Below are positions 37,264-43,361 of a stretch of 64,000 nucleotides of DNA, one piece after another. The translations under genes and the position numbers were made by a program. How positions within the stretch are numbered: position 1 is the first letter of the stretch; each line of letters starts with the position of its first letter. The notes under the pieces were generated by a model that did not search any database, was not told the DNA's origin, and saw only the letters and a list, made by a program, of their open reading frames with translations. The DNA is from Desulfovibrio sp. UCD-KL4C (GTDB lineage: Bacteria; Desulfobacterota; Desulfovibrionia; Desulfovibrionales; Desulfovibrionaceae): the NCBI RefSeq assembly GCF_006210265.1, contig NZ_VCNC01000001.1, positions 1-64,000 on the forward strand, given 5' to 3'.

Positions 37264-37295
37264 AAAAGGTCTGCTCCCGGAGGAACAGACCTTTT
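37264..37295 (-). terminator. Terminator of the PpiD-like gene
   Basis: Perfect 10-bp stem (37264-37273 with 37286-37295) plus an inner CTCC/GGAG pair, and A/T runs on both sides. It lies 20 bp beyond the stop at 37316. Confidence 0.85.
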
Positions 37296-37315: not shown

Positions 37316-39220
37316 CTAATTATTAAGTAAATCCGGGCGAACAACTTCAACTTTTGCTTTAGATCGCAATTCCTGCATAAATGAACTAATTATTTCATTT
37401 GCCTGCTGGCGTTCAAGGCTTGACATAATAGCTTGCTTCTGGCTTTCCCAAGTTTCGTCGCTTGGAGGAATAAGCTCATCAAGTCTTGCAACTATGTAAC
37501 CACCTGGAAGTTCAAAAGCCTGCTGCATCCAATTGTTTTTGGTTGAATCAAAAGCGGTTTCAGCAAGTTTAGGATTCATTCCAAGCCCAGGGATAAAACC
37601 GTCTCTACCAAAAGATTCAGATGTCTTAAGATCTTTCTTGATAGATTTAAGTTCTTTTTCCGCAGTAGCAGGTGTGGTTAGCTTGCCCATCACTATGGTT
37701 GCTTTAGCTTTTGCCAGCATCATAGCCTGTTTCTGAGAAAGGAATTCTTTGATGTCCTTTTTAACTTCATCAAGCGGACGAAGTGATGCAGGAGTTTCTT
37801 CTACTTTTTCAGCGACCAGATATCCGTTATCTACAGCAATAGGCATTTCAGTTGTATTGCCTTTTGGAAGTACAATAATTGATTTCGCAGCGTCTTCGGT
37901 CATGCCGAATGCGCGGGTAAGGTTTTTAAGAGTTGCTTTTTCACTTTTTTGAACAGCTACTCCAAGTTCTTCACCTACTGCATCAAGTTTCATACCTGAA
38001 GCAATAAGGTCTAGTGCATGATCAAGTTTTGCGCTGATTGAATCAGAAGCTTTTTCCTGAGCAATTGTATTTTTAATTTCAGATTTAACCTGGTCAAAAG
38101 ATTTTTGACCAGCTTCACGAGTATCTTCTACTTTAATAATATGGAACCCAAAGCGTGTACGGACAGGTTTACTGATTTCACCTTTTTTAAGCTTAAATGC
38201 AGCTTCTTCAAACGGTTTTACCATTGATCCTTTGCTGAACCAGCCTAATTCTCCACCCTTAGTCTTGCTTGGGCCTTCAGAGTATTTTTTTGCAAGTTTT
38301 GCAAAGTTCTGACCTGATTTTGCTTTCGCAAAGATTTTGTTGATTTTCTTTTCAGCTTTTTTAATTTCAGCAGGGCTGGCCTTTTCATCTACAAGGATAA
38401 GAATATGGCTGGCTTTAACCTGTGCATCCTGTTTGTAGCTCTCTTTATTAGCCGCATAGTATTTGTTCATTTCTTCAGGGCTGACATCTTCATATACAGC
38501 CAATTCTTCAGGAGTGAATGAAATGTACTTTACAATACTGCTGGCAGGAATCGTAAAATTATTTGGATTATCTTTGTAGTATTTTTTGATTTCAGAGTCA
38601 GTGACTTTTGCCTTGTTTAAAAAGTCTGCTCCGGAAACATAGTAATAATCTATCTGCGCTCTTTCGCCTGCCCAGTTGAATAACGCACGAGCATCAGCCT
38701 CCGTTGGGGCTGCTGGAATAGCTACGTATTCCTGAATCTTTTGAATTAGGTTGCTGTTACGCATGTCCTGTTCAAAAGTTGCGGCTGACATTTGTCTACC
38801 CTGTAGATATCTTTGGTAAAGAGATTTATCAAATTTACCATCAGAATTTGCAAAAGCAGGAATTTTACTAATTTCGTAGTAGAGTTCGCTGTTTGAAATG
38901 CCAATACCAAGTCGTTTAGCTTCAGATTCAAGAATTTTAGAATTAACCAGCTGATTCAGGATCGCTTTTTTAAATTCAGGAGACTGGAGTTGGTCAGGAT
39001 CAATCTTAGGATTCTGCTGTCTAAGCATTTCTGCTGTTTGCCGATAAACTTTAACAAATTCCTGAGTTGGAATAGGCTCATCGTTAACATAAGCTATGAC
39101 CGGATCAGTGTTACCGTTAAAACCGCTCATGCCGAAGGCAAAAATAAAAACCAGAATGATGATACCGAATAAAACTTTAATGCCCCATCCTTGGGCTTTT
39201 TGGCGCATAATGTCCAGCAT
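37316..39220 (-). CDS. ppiD: PpiD-like periplasmic peptidyl-prolyl isomerase/chaperone
   Basis: 634 residues: one N-terminal membrane anchor (VLFGIIILVFIFAFGM, about 16-31), a SurA-N-like chaperone region (about 40-190), a parvulin PpiC domain (about 265-365; ASHILILVDEKA, KYSEGPSKTKGGELGWFSKGSMV, RFGFHIIKVED), and a second helical chaperone region. PpiD is anchored at the inner membrane near SecYEG and folds exported proteins. Full length with no interruption. Confidence 0.93.
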   Translation of the reverse strand: MLDIMRQKAQGWGIKVLFGIIILVFIFAFGMSGFNGNTDPVIAYVNDEPIPTQEFVKVYRQTAEMLRQQNPKIDPDQLQSPEFKKAILNQLVNSKILESEAKRLGIGISNSELYYEISKIPAFANSDGKFDKSLYQRYLQGRQMSAATFEQDMRNSNLIQKIQEYVAIPAAPTEADARALFNWAGERAQIDYYYVSGADFLNKAKVTDSEIKKYYKDNPNNFTIPASSIVKYISFTPEELAVYEDVSPEEMNKYYAANKESYKQDAQVKASHILILVDEKASPAEIKKAEKKINKIFAKAKSGQNFAKLAKKYSEGPSKTKGGELGWFSKGSMVKPFEEAAFKLKKGEISKPVRTRFGFHIIKVEDTREAGQKSFDQVKSEIKNTIAQEKASDSISAKLDHALDLIASGMKLDAVGEELGVAVQKSEKATLKNLTRAFGMTEDAAKSIIVLPKGNTTEMPIAVDNGYLVAEKVEETPASLRPLDEVKKDIKEFLSQKQAMMLAKAKATIVMGKLTTPATAEKELKSIKKDLKTSESFGRDGFIPGLGMNPKLAETAFDSTKNNWMQQAFELPGGYIVARLDELIPPSDETWESQKQAIMSSLERQQANEIISSFMQELRSKAKVEVVRPDLLNN

Positions 39221-39322: not shown

Positions 39323-41239
39323 CTATTTTCTGCCCACGTAATTGAGCAGACCACCGGCTACAATAATAGCCAGTTCCTTTTCGGAAAGGTCATTTTTGAC
39401 CTTAACTTTAAAACCTTCTGTTGTGGTCATTTCTGCCACTCCGCCGGGAGTCAAAGTTGTTGTGTCGAGAGTCAGGCCGCTTCCTTCAGATAGTTTGTCG
39501 TAATCGCTCTTGTCGGATAGTACAAGGGGTAGGATGCCGAAATTGATAAGATTTGCTCTGTGAATGCGTGCAAGTGACTTAACAATGACAGCTACAACTC
39601 CAAGGTGACGTGGTCCGAGTGCAGCGTGCTCGCGGCTTGAGCCCTGTCCGTAGTTTTCACCGCCGAGAATAATTCCGTTGTCAGATTTTTTCATTCTATT
39701 GACAAAATTTTCGTCAACACGGCTGAAAATGTATTCGCTGATTGCTGGAATGTTAGAACGTAAAGCAGTGATTTGCGCTCCGGCAGGAAGAATATGGTCA
39801 GTTGTAATATCATCACCTACTTTAAGAAGTACTTTAGAAGCAATTTTTTCAGGCAGTGCTGAAAAACTTTCAAGCGGTATAATATTAGGTCCACGGACAA
39901 GTTCTACATTTTTACCGTTTTCAGGTGGGAAAATGAAGAGGTGGCGGATAGATGGAATCTCTTTAGGGAAGTCAATTTTTGCAGGAGGAGTTCCCCAAGT
40001 TGCAGGATCAGTGAATTCTCCTGCAAGTGCTAGGTTGGCTGCTGTCTGAGGTGATGCAAGGTAAATTTTTGCATCTTGGGTTCCGCTGCGGCCTTCAAAG
40101 TTTCGGTTGAAAGTTCTTACGCTGACACCTGCTGACACAGGTGAACCGCCCATGCCGATGCACGGGCCGCAAGTACATTCTAGAAGTCTAGCTCCTGAAT
40201 CAAGCAGGGGAGCAATCAGCCCGTCAGATGCGAGCATCTTTAAAACCTGCTTAGAGCCGGGAGAAATCATGAGGTCAACACCCTGCGGAAGCTGGTGGTC
40301 AGTCAAAATGAGCGCAGTTGTCTTGAGGTCTGAATATGAAGAGTTGGTACATGAGCCGATTGCCGCCTGACTGACTTTGAGTCCAGCAAGTGATTTTACG
40401 GTCACTACACGGTCCGGCATGTGTGGCTGTGCAACCAGAGGTTCAAGTTCAGAGAGATTTATTAGGATTGTTTCAGAATAAGTTGCATCTGCGTCAGCTA
40501 TAAGCTCACTGAAATCTTCAACGCGTCCCATGACTTTGAGGAATTTCTCGGTCTGGCTGTCGCTTGGGAAAATAGAGGTGGTCGCGCCGAGTTCTGCGCC
40601 CATATTCGTGATAACAGAGCGTTCAGGAACGGATAATGTTGCTACTCCTTCTCCTGCAAATTCAAAAACTTTTCCCACGCCTCCTTTGACTGTAAGCAGC
40701 CCAAGGAGGTGCAGGATAATATCTTTAGATGTAGCCCAGCCCGTAAGTTCTCCAGTCAGTTCAACCTTGACAACTTTAGGCATGGGGATGGAATAAGGCT
40801 GTCCCGCCATAGCAAGAGCTACAGATAGCCCGCCTGCTCCCATAGCCAGAGAACCGAGTCCGCCGGCAGTAGGTGTGTGGCTGTCAGAACCGATCAGAGT
40901 TGCGCCGGGTTTAGCGAAGTTTTCAAGGTGCAACTGATGACAGATGCCAGTTCCTGCTGGAGAGAAAACAACTCCATGTTTAGCTGCAACAGTTCTGAGG
41001 TATTGATGGTCATCAGGGTTACGGAAGCCCATCTGTAATGTGTTGTGGTCAACATAGCTTACAGAAAGGTCCGTCTGAACTTTATCAATACCCATGGCTT
41101 CAAATTGCAGGTAAGCCATAGTACCGGTGGCATCTTGAGTTAATGTCTGGTCAATTTTAAGCCCGATTTCAGAGCCCGGTTCCATTTTGCCGCTTACTAA
41201 ATGGCTGGAAATAATTTTCTCAGTAATATTAAAACCCAT
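39323..41239 (-). CDS. acnA: Aconitate hydratase (about 640 aa type)
   Basis: 638 residues. Interconverts citrate and isocitrate through a [4Fe-4S] cluster; the cluster cysteines are Cys297 (GSCTNSS) and Cys357/Cys360 (CTCGPC). Other hallmarks: DSHTPTAGGLGSLAMGAGG and, in the small domain, GGENYGQGSSREHAALGPR and HRANLINFGILPL. It is the shorter single-chain aconitase type found in many anaerobes. Homoaconitase or isopropylmalate isomerase are less likely given the single chain and length. Own unit with an upstream gap of about 70 bp. Confidence 0.92.
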   Translation of the reverse strand: MGFNITEKIISSHLVSGKMEPGSEIGLKIDQTLTQDATGTMAYLQFEAMGIDKVQTDLSVSYVDHNTLQMGFRNPDDHQYLRTVAAKHGVVFSPAGTGICHQLHLENFAKPGATLIGSDSHTPTAGGLGSLAMGAGGLSVALAMAGQPYSIPMPKVVKVELTGELTGWATSKDIILHLLGLLTVKGGVGKVFEFAGEGVATLSVPERSVITNMGAELGATTSIFPSDSQTEKFLKVMGRVEDFSELIADADATYSETILINLSELEPLVAQPHMPDRVVTVKSLAGLKVSQAAIGSCTNSSYSDLKTTALILTDHQLPQGVDLMISPGSKQVLKMLASDGLIAPLLDSGARLLECTCGPCIGMGGSPVSAGVSVRTFNRNFEGRSGTQDAKIYLASPQTAANLALAGEFTDPATWGTPPAKIDFPKEIPSIRHLFIFPPENGKNVELVRGPNIIPLESFSALPEKIASKVLLKVGDDITTDHILPAGAQITALRSNIPAISEYIFSRVDENFVNRMKKSDNGIILGGENYGQGSSREHAALGPRHLGVVAVIVKSLARIHRANLINFGILPLVLSDKSDYDKLSEGSGLTLDTTTLTPGGVAEMTTTEGFKVKVKNDLSEKELAIIVAGGLLNYVGRK

Positions 41240-41308: not shown

Positions 41309-41572
41309 TTACAATTCGGTCGTTCCGAGTTTGATCCGGTTAATTTTGTTTTTGCGAGATGTTATTTCAACTTCTAAGCGAAGTTTGTCTCTTTTGCTTT
41401 CAAATATTTCTTGAGCAAAATAAATCCCTTTCGCAGGATTTTCACTCTTGAGAAGTTTTTGAATTCTTTCTTTGCAAGCTTCAAGTTCTTTTTCAAAAGA
41501 CTTAATAGCTTTTTCGATTTCAGGAATACTAATCAATTTTGATTCTTCGTCTGTTTGATTTTGCGTCATCAT
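41309..41572 (-). CDS. Small unknown coiled-coil protein (about 87 aa)
   Basis: About 87 residues if it starts at the ATG at 41572; a start 12 residues earlier (41608) is also open. Highly charged helix (IPEIEKAIKSFEKELEACKERIQKLLKSENPAK) then a second charged segment. No membrane segment. The start lies inside the end of the upstream fusion gene (44-base overlap in another frame), so it would be translationally coupled to it. I do not recognise it. Confidence 0.5.
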   Translation of the reverse strand: MMTQNQTDEESKLISIPEIEKAIKSFEKELEACKERIQKLLKSENPAKGIYFAQEIFESKRDKLRLEVEITSRKNKINRIKLGTTEL

Positions 41573-43181
41573 TACGATCTTTAATCTCTGGGTCTTTAAG
41601 GCCGTCAATTTCAGGAAGACTATTATATAAGGTCCAGTAACGAGGCCATAGTTCGGTTATATCTCCGGGATTCTGCAAAGAAAGTCCTGGGCGAATCCAA
41701 GCCATCAGTCCCAGTGCTATACCAAAGTAAGGAGTTGGAGCACTCCAGGCATCTTCCCACTGCAATCTGCCGGGAGTGATTTGAACTCCGCTTTCAGTTC
41801 GGGCGTATTGGAGTCCCAGCCGTTCAAGAAGTTCAATTCCCTGTTCGAATAAGGTCGTGTCGTTAATTCCCTGAAGAGAACATTCTGTTCCGGAGTTTAC
41901 AGCCAGTGCAATTCCGATTGGGAAAAGATTTGAAGCCTGTCCGAAGTCAATATTAACTGATTGCGGTTGATCACCTTTAGTAGAACTTATTTCAGTGTCG
42001 GAAATCTTTACAATCAAACCACCTAAAGTGAGAGCCTTAAGAGCATCTTTTGCTTTAGGAGAAGTCTTCGGCCATGTTCCTTTAATGGTAACATTTCCGC
42101 CTGCAAAAGCAGGGATTGAAAGCAGCGCCGCGCTGAGTTCTGGGTCCAATGCAATGTTTGGCTGTTCAGGGAAAGAAAATGTTTTGGTCGGATAAACAGT
42201 ACATGATGTGTCAGTCAGATCTGTTTTGATTCCGCAAGCATTCAGAACGTCAACTGCATCGCGAATTTCTGAAATTCCAGACCAGTCTTTTTCATAATTA
42301 AGGGTTAAGCCTTTAGGATATGTCCAAGCTGCAAGGGTTAGAGCTGCTGCAAATTTAGGAGGAGTATCTTCGGTAATTGTGAGAGCAGATACCAAATTCC
42401 CGCCGCATTCCAGTCTAGCTGGTAATCCGTGACTCTGAAGGTCAAGAGTGTTGAGGCGGGCTCCGAGAGGTGCTAGCAAAGCAGTTAAAGGTCTTGAGTC
42501 GTACTGCTTGAGAATTGTTCCACCTGCTACTTTGAACTTGCCTGGGGACTTTAGTCCGAATGCAAGCACTAAAAACATGGTCATTTCATCATCGCCTGCA
42601 AAGACGAGTTTATCTTCGAAGGACACTCCATCTTCGGATGCGCGTGATTCAATAGTGTCATTTTCCCATGAAATATGAGCGCCAGCCTGATTGAACGCTT
42701 TTGCCAGTTCTGTCAGCTGATCATTAACAGATAGAGGTGACATTGTCGCATCAGCAGAGCACATTGCTGCAAGAGCAATCCATAGCTGAGACTGAAATAG
42801 AGAACATGGTCCGTCAATAACAACCTTTACTGGTCTTCTCGGAGGTGACAGTGCGTAAGAAGGCAGATTGCGGTTTTCAGGTTTGGCAACGCAAGTATAT
42901 GCAAGAGCATTGAGCTGCTCAAAAACTCTGCGAGCAGCCTTAATATTAAATTTTTTGTCAGTTGCTTCTGTGGTCCATGTCTCAAAGATACGTCTTTCCA
43001 TGTCCGGGTCGCCAAGAGGTAAACCTTTCAATTTTCTTTTAGAGGCAGCTTTACCCATAAGGTAGTTTCTGCGTGAAATCAGTGAAATTAGGCGTGCGTC
43101 CAGATCTTTAATTTCTTGAAGCAGGGAAGGCCTGCGCGGTGAGTCGTCACCATGGCTATCGAATTTTTTGTAATTGGGCAT
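41529..43181 (-). CDS. Chorismate-mutase-like / degenerate EPSP-synthase-like fusion
   Basis: 550 residues. Residues about 15-95 resemble a chorismate-mutase helix bundle (LLQEIKDLDARLISLISRRNYL, GDPDMERRIFETWT). From about 110 the repeated pattern fits EPSP synthase (GGTILKQYDSRPLTALLAPLGA; ALDPELSAALLSIPAFAGGNVTIKG). The usual catalytic residues are missing: GSKSxSNR is replaced by GPCSLFQSQ (Lys to Cys), NAGTAMR by AGDDEMT, SSQF by PPKF, and RVKExDR by PKTSPKAKD. One Arg (DSRP) remains. A functional EPSP synthase is therefore unlikely. It may bind a related ligand or regulate aromatic synthesis. Confidence 0.7.
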   Translation of the reverse strand: MPNYKKFDSHGDDSPRRPSLLQEIKDLDARLISLISRRNYLMGKAASKRKLKGLPLGDPDMERRIFETWTTEATDKKFNIKAARRVFEQLNALAYTCVAKPENRNLPSYALSPPRRPVKVVIDGPCSLFQSQLWIALAAMCSADATMSPLSVNDQLTELAKAFNQAGAHISWENDTIESRASEDGVSFEDKLVFAGDDEMTMFLVLAFGLKSPGKFKVAGGTILKQYDSRPLTALLAPLGARLNTLDLQSHGLPARLECGGNLVSALTITEDTPPKFAAALTLAAWTYPKGLTLNYEKDWSGISEIRDAVDVLNACGIKTDLTDTSCTVYPTKTFSFPEQPNIALDPELSAALLSIPAFAGGNVTIKGTWPKTSPKAKDALKALTLGGLIVKISDTEISSTKGDQPQSVNIDFGQASNLFPIGIALAVNSGTECSLQGINDTTLFEQGIELLERLGLQYARTESGVQITPGRLQWEDAWSAPTPYFGIALGLMAWIRPGLSLQNPGDITELWPRYWTLYNSLPEIDGLKDPEIKDRNDDAKSNRRRIKID

Positions 43182-43291: not shown

Positions 43292-43332
43292 AAACTAAAA
43301 AAAAAGGGAGAAAGCGGTGACCGCCTCCTCCC
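43292..43332 (-). terminator. sat terminator
   Basis: Stem GGGAG...CTCCC (43306-43310 with 43328-43332) with inner GCGGT/ACCGC pairs, followed on the minus strand by about ten T. It lies 30 bp beyond the sat stop. Confidence 0.85.
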
Positions 43333-43361
43333 TATAAAAGCAAGTAGTGGTACTACTTTAA

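Follow-up and report, generated by a model that had tools for sequence, protein, structure and literature searches.

The AroQ fold of chorismate mutases usually forms dimers, and in AroQ-DAHP synthase enzymes the AroQ domain regulates the DAHP synthase. Pseudoenzymes derived from biosynthetic enzymes are also already known. Use of the EPSP-synthase fold for regulation has a precedent in plants, since PtrEPSP-TF, an EPSP synthase isoform of Populus, is reported to be a transcriptional repressor in passages of a review (PMC8416159). Here we describe a protein of Desulfovibrio sp. UCD-KL4C in which an AroQ-type domain is joined to an EPSP-synthase-type domain (the fusion), and its relatives across Desulfovibrionales, an order of sulfate reducers.

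With EPSP synthase (AroA; TIGR01356 / PF00275), the fusion shares a complete two-lobed fold, several glycines and prolines, and the terminal PxFW positions; it differs in having replaced site residues, in missing the equivalogue cut-off and in adding an N-terminal AroQ domain and a basic tail. Like AroQ chorismate mutases and the AroQ-DAHP synthases of Bacillus and Geobacillus (5go2, 5gmu and 5j6f), it has a three-helix fold (Z about 10) with invariant equivalents of Arg28 and Glu52, but it lacks equivalents of Arg11, Arg51 and Gln88 and is joined to an EPSP-type domain. PtrEPSP-TF, for which the passages of PMC8416159 give the regulatory role, is likewise related to EPSP synthase and carries additional sequence at its N terminus; it is, however, a plant protein with a helix-turn-helix motif, whereas the extra part of the fusion is AroQ. 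In the open-access PMC literature, including passages of PMC11237513, no paper on a CM-EPSP-like fusion and no description of this domain pairing as a pseudoenzyme was found among the listed entries and abstract openings. A text search of the main text of a D. vulgaris mutant library paper (PMC10102598) for six terms gave no match, and a literature search by a guessed D. vulgaris locus tag listed only papers on regulators.

Domains and predicted folds

The fusion gene lies in the window, the 64,000-nucleotide stretch of contig NZ_VCNC01000001.1 that was analysed, and its features are collected in Table 1. A sequence-only reading of this DNA had reported a long intact reading frame encoding a chorismate-mutase-like domain fused to an EPSP-synthase-like domain. 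Both claims were borne out. The frame is open over its whole length on the minus strand, while the plus strand over the same interval contains many stops. Since Pfam CM_2 (residues 22-90, 35.7 bits against a cut-off of 27, E = 1e-8) and EPSP_synthase (residues 130-474, 35.3 bits against a cut-off of 22.8, E = 7.3e-9) both exceeded their cut-offs, the fusion is not a chance assignment. Among single members of the family, EPSP_synthase was detected in 39/53 and CM_2 in 37/53. The aroA equivalogue TIGR01356 scored 48.2 bits, below its cut-off of 287.25, and the best curated chorismate-mutase equivalogue scored 28.6 bits, below its cut-off of 66.95.

Table 1. Positions in the window of the fusion gene, its parts and its neighbours
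Feature	Coordinates	Strand	Remarks
CM-EPSP-like fusion gene	41529..43181, stop included	-	550 aa, intact ORF
AroQ-type (chorismate mutase type II) domain	42885..43124	-	residues 20-99, three helices; Pfam CM_2; pLDDT 91.3; Z 10.3
EPSP-synthase-type domain	41604..42866	-	residues 106-526, catalytic residues replaced; Pfam; Z 37.3; residue table
Basic tail RRRI	41541..41552	-	residues 544-547, after low-confidence linker
Small coiled-coil-like ORF	41309..41572	-	87 aa if the start is the ATG at 41572; shares 44 nt with the 3' end of the fusion gene
Aconitate hydratase	39323..41239	-	downstream in predicted unit
SurA/PpiD-like peptidyl-prolyl isomerase	37316..39220	-	last gene of predicted unit
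Terminator-like hairpin after ATP sulfurylase gene	43305..43333	-	upstream edge of predicted unit
Terminator-like hairpin after isomerase gene	37264..37295	-	downstream edge of predicted unit

An AlphaFold2 model of the whole fusion, built with 32 sequences, had a mean pLDDT of 87.8 and a pTM of 0.82, with low confidence confined to residues 1-12, 102-104 and 532-550. The structure prediction called for by the earlier reading yielded a complete EPSP-synthase fold. When residues ~106-524 were compared with solved EPSP synthases, the best rows reached Z 36-37 (rmsd 2.6-3.5, 402-413 residues), and 2o0b gave Z 37.3 (rmsd 3.0, 408 residues aligned). MurA as the closest fold relative was ruled out, as its rows scored lower (Z about 30-31). 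The list from the whole-model search was filled by EPSP-type and MurA chains, and the AroQ domain was folded and searched separately. The best solved match of this model (pLDDT 91.3) was 5go2_D (Z 10.3, rmsd 2.8, 85 residues), a Z that is modest for a helical bundle. The first 36 rows comprised chorismate mutases, AroQ domains of DAHP synthases, isochorismate-pyruvate lyases and one "conserved hypothetical" protein (1ybz). Foldseek E-values were weak (best 0.012), and the profile match to 1ecm was 4.5e-6. The AroQ identification rests on the Pfam match, the 1ecm profile match and the fold list taken together. Collectively, profiles and models identify the fusion as an AroQ-type domain followed by a predicted complete EPSP-synthase-type fold.

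The protein ends in a basic tail. The motif [RK]3[IVFL] was found in the last 45 residues of 65/84 members, as compared with 8/937 other 45-residue stretches of the same proteins, and most of the 19 members without it carry a shorter basic form such as RRIRV; the 84 members pool two alignments in which at least four genomes occur twice and many are close relatives, and are not 84 independent cases. The tail might merely reflect a ribosome-binding site or the overlapping small ORF, but neither origin was favoured: it is kept in loci where no small ORF was found to overlap the gene (e.g., L047, L051 and L054), and its codons are CGN as well as AGA/AGG.

Residues of the two active sites

The fusion family was compared with AroA by profile-profile alignment (hhalign; probability 99.9%, E = 1.6e-34, 402 columns). 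The family set comprised the window sequence and one sequence from each of 54 other matching genomes (n = 55). The AroA set (n = 33) comprised the canonical AroA of the same genome, those of 29 relatives with a locus and three from outside the class. Of 18 active-site positions (E. coli numbering), 17 were identical in 33/33 AroAs and one in 31/33. In the fusion family, the AroA residue was kept at these positions in 0, 2, 0, 15, 0, 2, 0, 0, 12, 4, 0, 11, 4, 8, 0, 0, 3 and 2 of the 55 members; eight positions thus keep it in no member, and the best-kept position in 15. In E. coli numbering, the equivalents of Lys22, Arg27, Arg124, Gln171 and Arg344 were kept in 0/55 each, that of Asp313 in 11/55, Glu341 in 8/55, Arg386 in 3/55 and Lys411 in 2/55. 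The equivalents of Lys340, Glu341 and Arg344 lie in a loop that is shortened.

The alignment and these counts support the claim of the sequence-only reading that the EPSP catalytic motifs are replaced. Of the equivalents it had named, GPCSLFQSQ, AGDDEMT and PPKF stood, corresponding to SKSxSxR, DSGTT and SSQ in turn, but PKTSPKAKD (about residues 371-379) is not the counterpart of RVKExDR, which hhalign placed at a shortened stretch near 437-447 (GI-----NDTTLF). An Arg of DSRP (R230), said to remain, proved not to be a family trait: column 230 is less than 60% conserved, the family consensus at this position is DLxP, and hhalign puts Y227 opposite the Arg of AroA. The Asp of ALDPEL does persist, with D346 matching an AroA-invariant Asp and kept in 75% of the family.

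Fifty-five aligned columns were invariant in the 33 AroAs, and 12 of these keep their residue in at least half of the fusion family; they are mostly glycine, proline, leucine or aromatic, with S127 and D346 also included. Among 53 fusion members, the only invariant residues of the EPSP-type domain were R242, P254, E258 and W516, the last three being the usual residue in AroA too. Family-specific polar residues were found at positions that vary in AroA (R242 in 55/55, R256 in 49, K161 in 48 and K225 in 46).

Positions of the AroQ site in the fusion were set by equal-length matches to 1ecm, for the active-site set Arg11, Arg28, Lys39, Asp48, Arg51, Glu52, Ser84 and Gln88 (E. coli numbering). The equivalents of Arg28 and Glu52 (R38 and E62 in the fusion) were kept in 55/55 members. 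The Lys39 equivalent was Arg in 43/55 and Lys in 5/55; that of Asp48 was kept in 43/55 and that of Ser84 in 9/55. Across the 55 members, the equivalents of Arg11, Arg51 and Gln88 were lost, and other residues lead there. By alignment, half of the chorismate-mutase site of the fusion is lost. From this loss and the replaced AroA positions, we infer that the fusion probably lacks both activities.

Distribution, selection and genomic surroundings

The fusion was found in 55/58 relatives (missing from G021, G024 and G048), with no stop within any match among those 55 genomes, and in 179/199 genomes of the class (E 1e-10), where the weakest best match among those listed was 1.9e-34. Its occurrence in other Desulfovibrionaceae, which the earlier reading had proposed to check, thus extends across the order. 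In the class, 20/199 genomes lack the fusion, and four genera have no match. In some genomes of genus g32 (G123, G089, G082, G091 and G072), the profile match starts only at position 94-103 and the AroQ part is unrecognised, although the frame is long. Among the matches listed, four class matches had stops counted in them (G039, G148, G180 and G194); the one in G194, limited to positions 10-407, may represent a broken copy. In a search of the phylum, 62/297 genomes matched at E 1e-8, nine of them in the family of the window. The other 53 matched by the EPSP-type part only, in frames of about 420-620 aa; three such outside proteins (424-432 aa) align with AroA and have all 18 site residues or an alternative Asn at one. 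A DNA-pattern scan of genome contigs with alignment gave 32 fusion loci, in a set that overlaps that of the 58 relatives by at least four genomes. Named lineages among these loci were Desulfovibrio, Humidesulfovibrio, Desulfomicrobium, Desulfocurvus, Desulfovibrionaceae, Desulfomicrobiaceae, Desulfohalobiaceae, Desulfonatronaceae and Desulfovibrionales, and the remaining loci were labelled only delta-, Proteobacteria or Pseudomonadota.

Against five near relatives, dN/dS (Nei-Gojobori) of the fusion was 0.033, 0.070, 0.072, 0.124 and 0.101, and that of AroA in the same pairs 0.050, 0.057, 0.049, 0.064 and 0.079; in 4/5 fusion pairs and 3/5 AroA pairs dS exceeds 1, which makes the ratios of those pairs rough. 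Identity to the window was lower for the fusion than for AroA in 15/15 matched genomes. The codon comparisons indicate that the fusion is under strong purifying selection. The earlier view that this is not random decay is upheld by the fold, the residue counts, purifying selection and order-wide conservation.

In a site-mixture tree of 52 proteins, the 11 fusion members formed one clade (100/100) on a very long stem, which the midpoint divides into 2.78 and 1.46 changes per column. One clade with so long a stem suggests a single ancient loss of activity. With FastTree, the fusion family grouped with three AroAs from a different family of the phylum (0.93), and the site-mixture tree placed it elsewhere; an AU test did not reject a clade of the fusion with the AroAs of the order (p = 0.385). 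Because the stem is long, the place of the fusion in the AroA tree is unsure, as is its descent from a duplicated aroA of the order.

Genomes with the fusion usually also carry intact genes for both activities. A search of the genome for a canonical aroA, another check raised earlier, located one beside pheA (G000:C3), with an adjoining ORF that by eye resembles prephenate dehydrogenase. A separate murA-like gene is present. Three other CM_2 domains were found in the genome besides that of the fusion (L092, L093 and L002), in a DAHP-synthase-like ORF, a 97-aa stand-alone ORF after a LysR-like gene and a pheA-like ORF (neighbours assigned by eye). With its own AroA as the query, an aroA match was found in 53/56 relatives and in 51/53 fusion-bearing relatives searched, the match in G049 being partial. 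The two fusion-bearing relatives without a match were G009 (84% complete) and G026 (98% complete). In G026 (L047), neither an aroA match nor a CM_2 domain was found, in an assembly that may have gaps; unless it is gapped, this genome may speak against a role that needs the pathway. One CM_2 domain was found in each of 20 fusion-less genomes and 0 to 4 in 14 compared fusion-bearing ones, the fusion's own included where it scored. As a co-loss test of a link to aromatics, these CM_2 counts (20 genomes without and 14 with the fusion) revealed nothing unusual.

By eye, the ORF before pheA (L002 24-335) resembles the end of 3-dehydroquinate synthase II, and another (L092 1761-2849) resembles a classical 3-dehydroquinate synthase. 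Perhaps one genome holds two routes to dehydroquinate.

The fusion is predicted from sequence to start a transcription unit with the coiled-coil gene, the aconitase and the isomerase. A claim that it is cotranscribed holds, as a prediction, for the downstream genes but not for the upstream ATP sulfurylase gene, from which it is parted by a strong terminator-like hairpin (13 pairs, then T residues; -22.5 kcal/mol, z -4.77). Terminator-like sites numbered 7 in the scan against 7.1 in shuffles, and the two edge hairpins (13 and 14 pairs) were by far the longest. The aconitase passed the cut-offs of PRK07229 and "putative aconitate hydratase" TIGR01342 but not those of AcnA or AcnB. No aromatic-pathway gene was found among the conserved neighbours of the fusion (ATP sulfurylase, small ORF, aconitase and isomerase), and in L051-L054 no conserved neighbour was found within about 4-5 kb.

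By BLAST, the small ORF stood beside the fusion in 46/55 loci and in 31/32 loci. A further divergent copy was seen by eye in L048, and in L057 it follows the fusion without overlap. No Pfam or NCBIfam model reached its cut-off on the window copy, and NCBIfam gave only weak scattered matches over 23 copies. The small ORF, present in most of the order's genomes that were examined, has a conserved stretch like EIFxxQQDKLRLxxE. The small ORF was kept in 20/20 fusion-less genomes, with one stop counted in the match in G024 and in G120; among the 14 compared fusion-bearing genomes it was unmatched in four and weakly matched in one. In the phylum, it was found in 6/148 genomes, four of them from another family without a listed fusion. 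When the 20 fusion-less genomes were searched with a second profile, only partial EPSP-type matches and two weak AroQ-part ones were found (16/20 genomes, best 3.7e-18), and the match in G024 overlaps the canonical aroA. In 4/6 g9 genomes (L141, L146, L147 and L148), the small ORF is flanked by ATP sulfurylase and aconitase and no fusion match was found; the remaining two show one of these neighbours within the short flank. In 13/13 g33/g35 genomes (L142-L144, L152, L153 and L156-L163), it adjoins an aldehyde-dehydrogenase-like gene, and in G021, which lacks the fusion, it adjoins the aconitase. An obligate two-gene module of fusion and coiled-coil protein was ruled out, as each gene was found without the other. 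Any regulation by the fusion would be dispensable in 20/199 genomes, since there the gene is absent and the coiled-coil gene is kept.

Proposed role and alternatives

A non-catalytic role is the most likely one because both sites are lost, usually in genomes with intact copies of both activities, under strong selection. We consider it fairly probable that the fusion is a pseudoenzyme, a non-catalytic binding, scaffold or regulatory protein kept by selection. An ancestor of the order Desulfovibrionales would have carried AroQ and EPSP-synthase domains in one protein. Loss of the catalytic residues probably happened once and preceded the divergence of the order's families, after which the fusion would have been kept for a job without EPSP-synthase or chorismate-mutase chemistry. 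The AroQ helices would dimerise in the usual way, and a small molecule or a partner may bind to the two-lobed EPSP-type domain and possibly also to the AroQ pocket with the kept Arg38 and Glu62. The flexible linker with its conserved basic RRRI-type tail may dock on a target, and the whole would act as a binding, scaffold or regulatory subunit. This proposal, in which a protein for binding or regulation docks by its tail, draws on the likely non-catalytic role together with the regulation of DAHP synthase by AroQ and the plant precedent. The suggestion of the sequence-only reading, a regulator or ligand-binding homologue of the aromatic pathway, may fit. A narrower version, an order-wide metabolite sensor in which both domains read an aromatic-pathway intermediate and the tail signals to a nucleic-acid or protein target, is possible but rather unlikely.

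Strong purifying selection, the high-confidence fold and the conserved polar residues peculiar to the family would also suit a new enzyme, in which the EPSP-type cleft has been adapted to a different reaction and AroQ serves for dimerisation or as a second site. Only four EPSP-type residues are invariant among the 53 members, however, and three of these are also usual in AroA; by contrast, the 33 AroAs, a less divergent set, share 55 invariant columns. We regard a new enzyme as improbable, if conceivable. The idea that the fusion serves its operon neighbours (coiled-coil protein, aconitase and isomerase) as a partner or assembly factor, with no relation to aromatics, seems doubtful. Two long terminator-like hairpins bound the predicted unit and the small ORF adjoins the fusion in most loci of both sets, which share at least four genomes, but that ORF is kept in every fusion-less genome, is unmatched in 4/14 genomes with the fusion, and is present in a different family of the phylum in which no fusion was found.

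That the fusion works as both EPSP synthase and chorismate mutase by means of other residues is very improbable, even though the fold match spans the whole EPSP domain, half of the AroQ site is kept, and G026 has the fusion with no aroA or other chorismate-mutase domain found. The replaced AroA site positions, the lost AroQ residues, the shortened Lys340/Glu341/Arg344 loop and the aroA match in all but two of the fusion-bearing relatives searched, one match being partial, lead us to reject such an active enzyme. Least credible of all is a decaying pseudogene. Its identity to the window falls below that of AroA in all 15 matched comparisons, four genera have no fusion, and among the matches listed four in the class have stops and G194 is partial; yet dN/dS of 0.03-0.12 in five pairs argues strongly against decay for the genus of the window, and uninterrupted matches in the 55 genomes listed, with retention across the order, also lead us to reject it.

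What appears to be new in the putative pseudoenzyme is that two enzymes of one pathway are joined, both with damaged sites, and that most of a bacterial order retains the product, usually in genomes whose aroA looks functional. An annotation that follows family names could label the fusion as EPSP synthase or chorismate mutase, and so distort reconstructed pathways and glyphosate-target surveys. Genomes without the fusion but with its neighbours still in place offer a ready contrast for finding its function.
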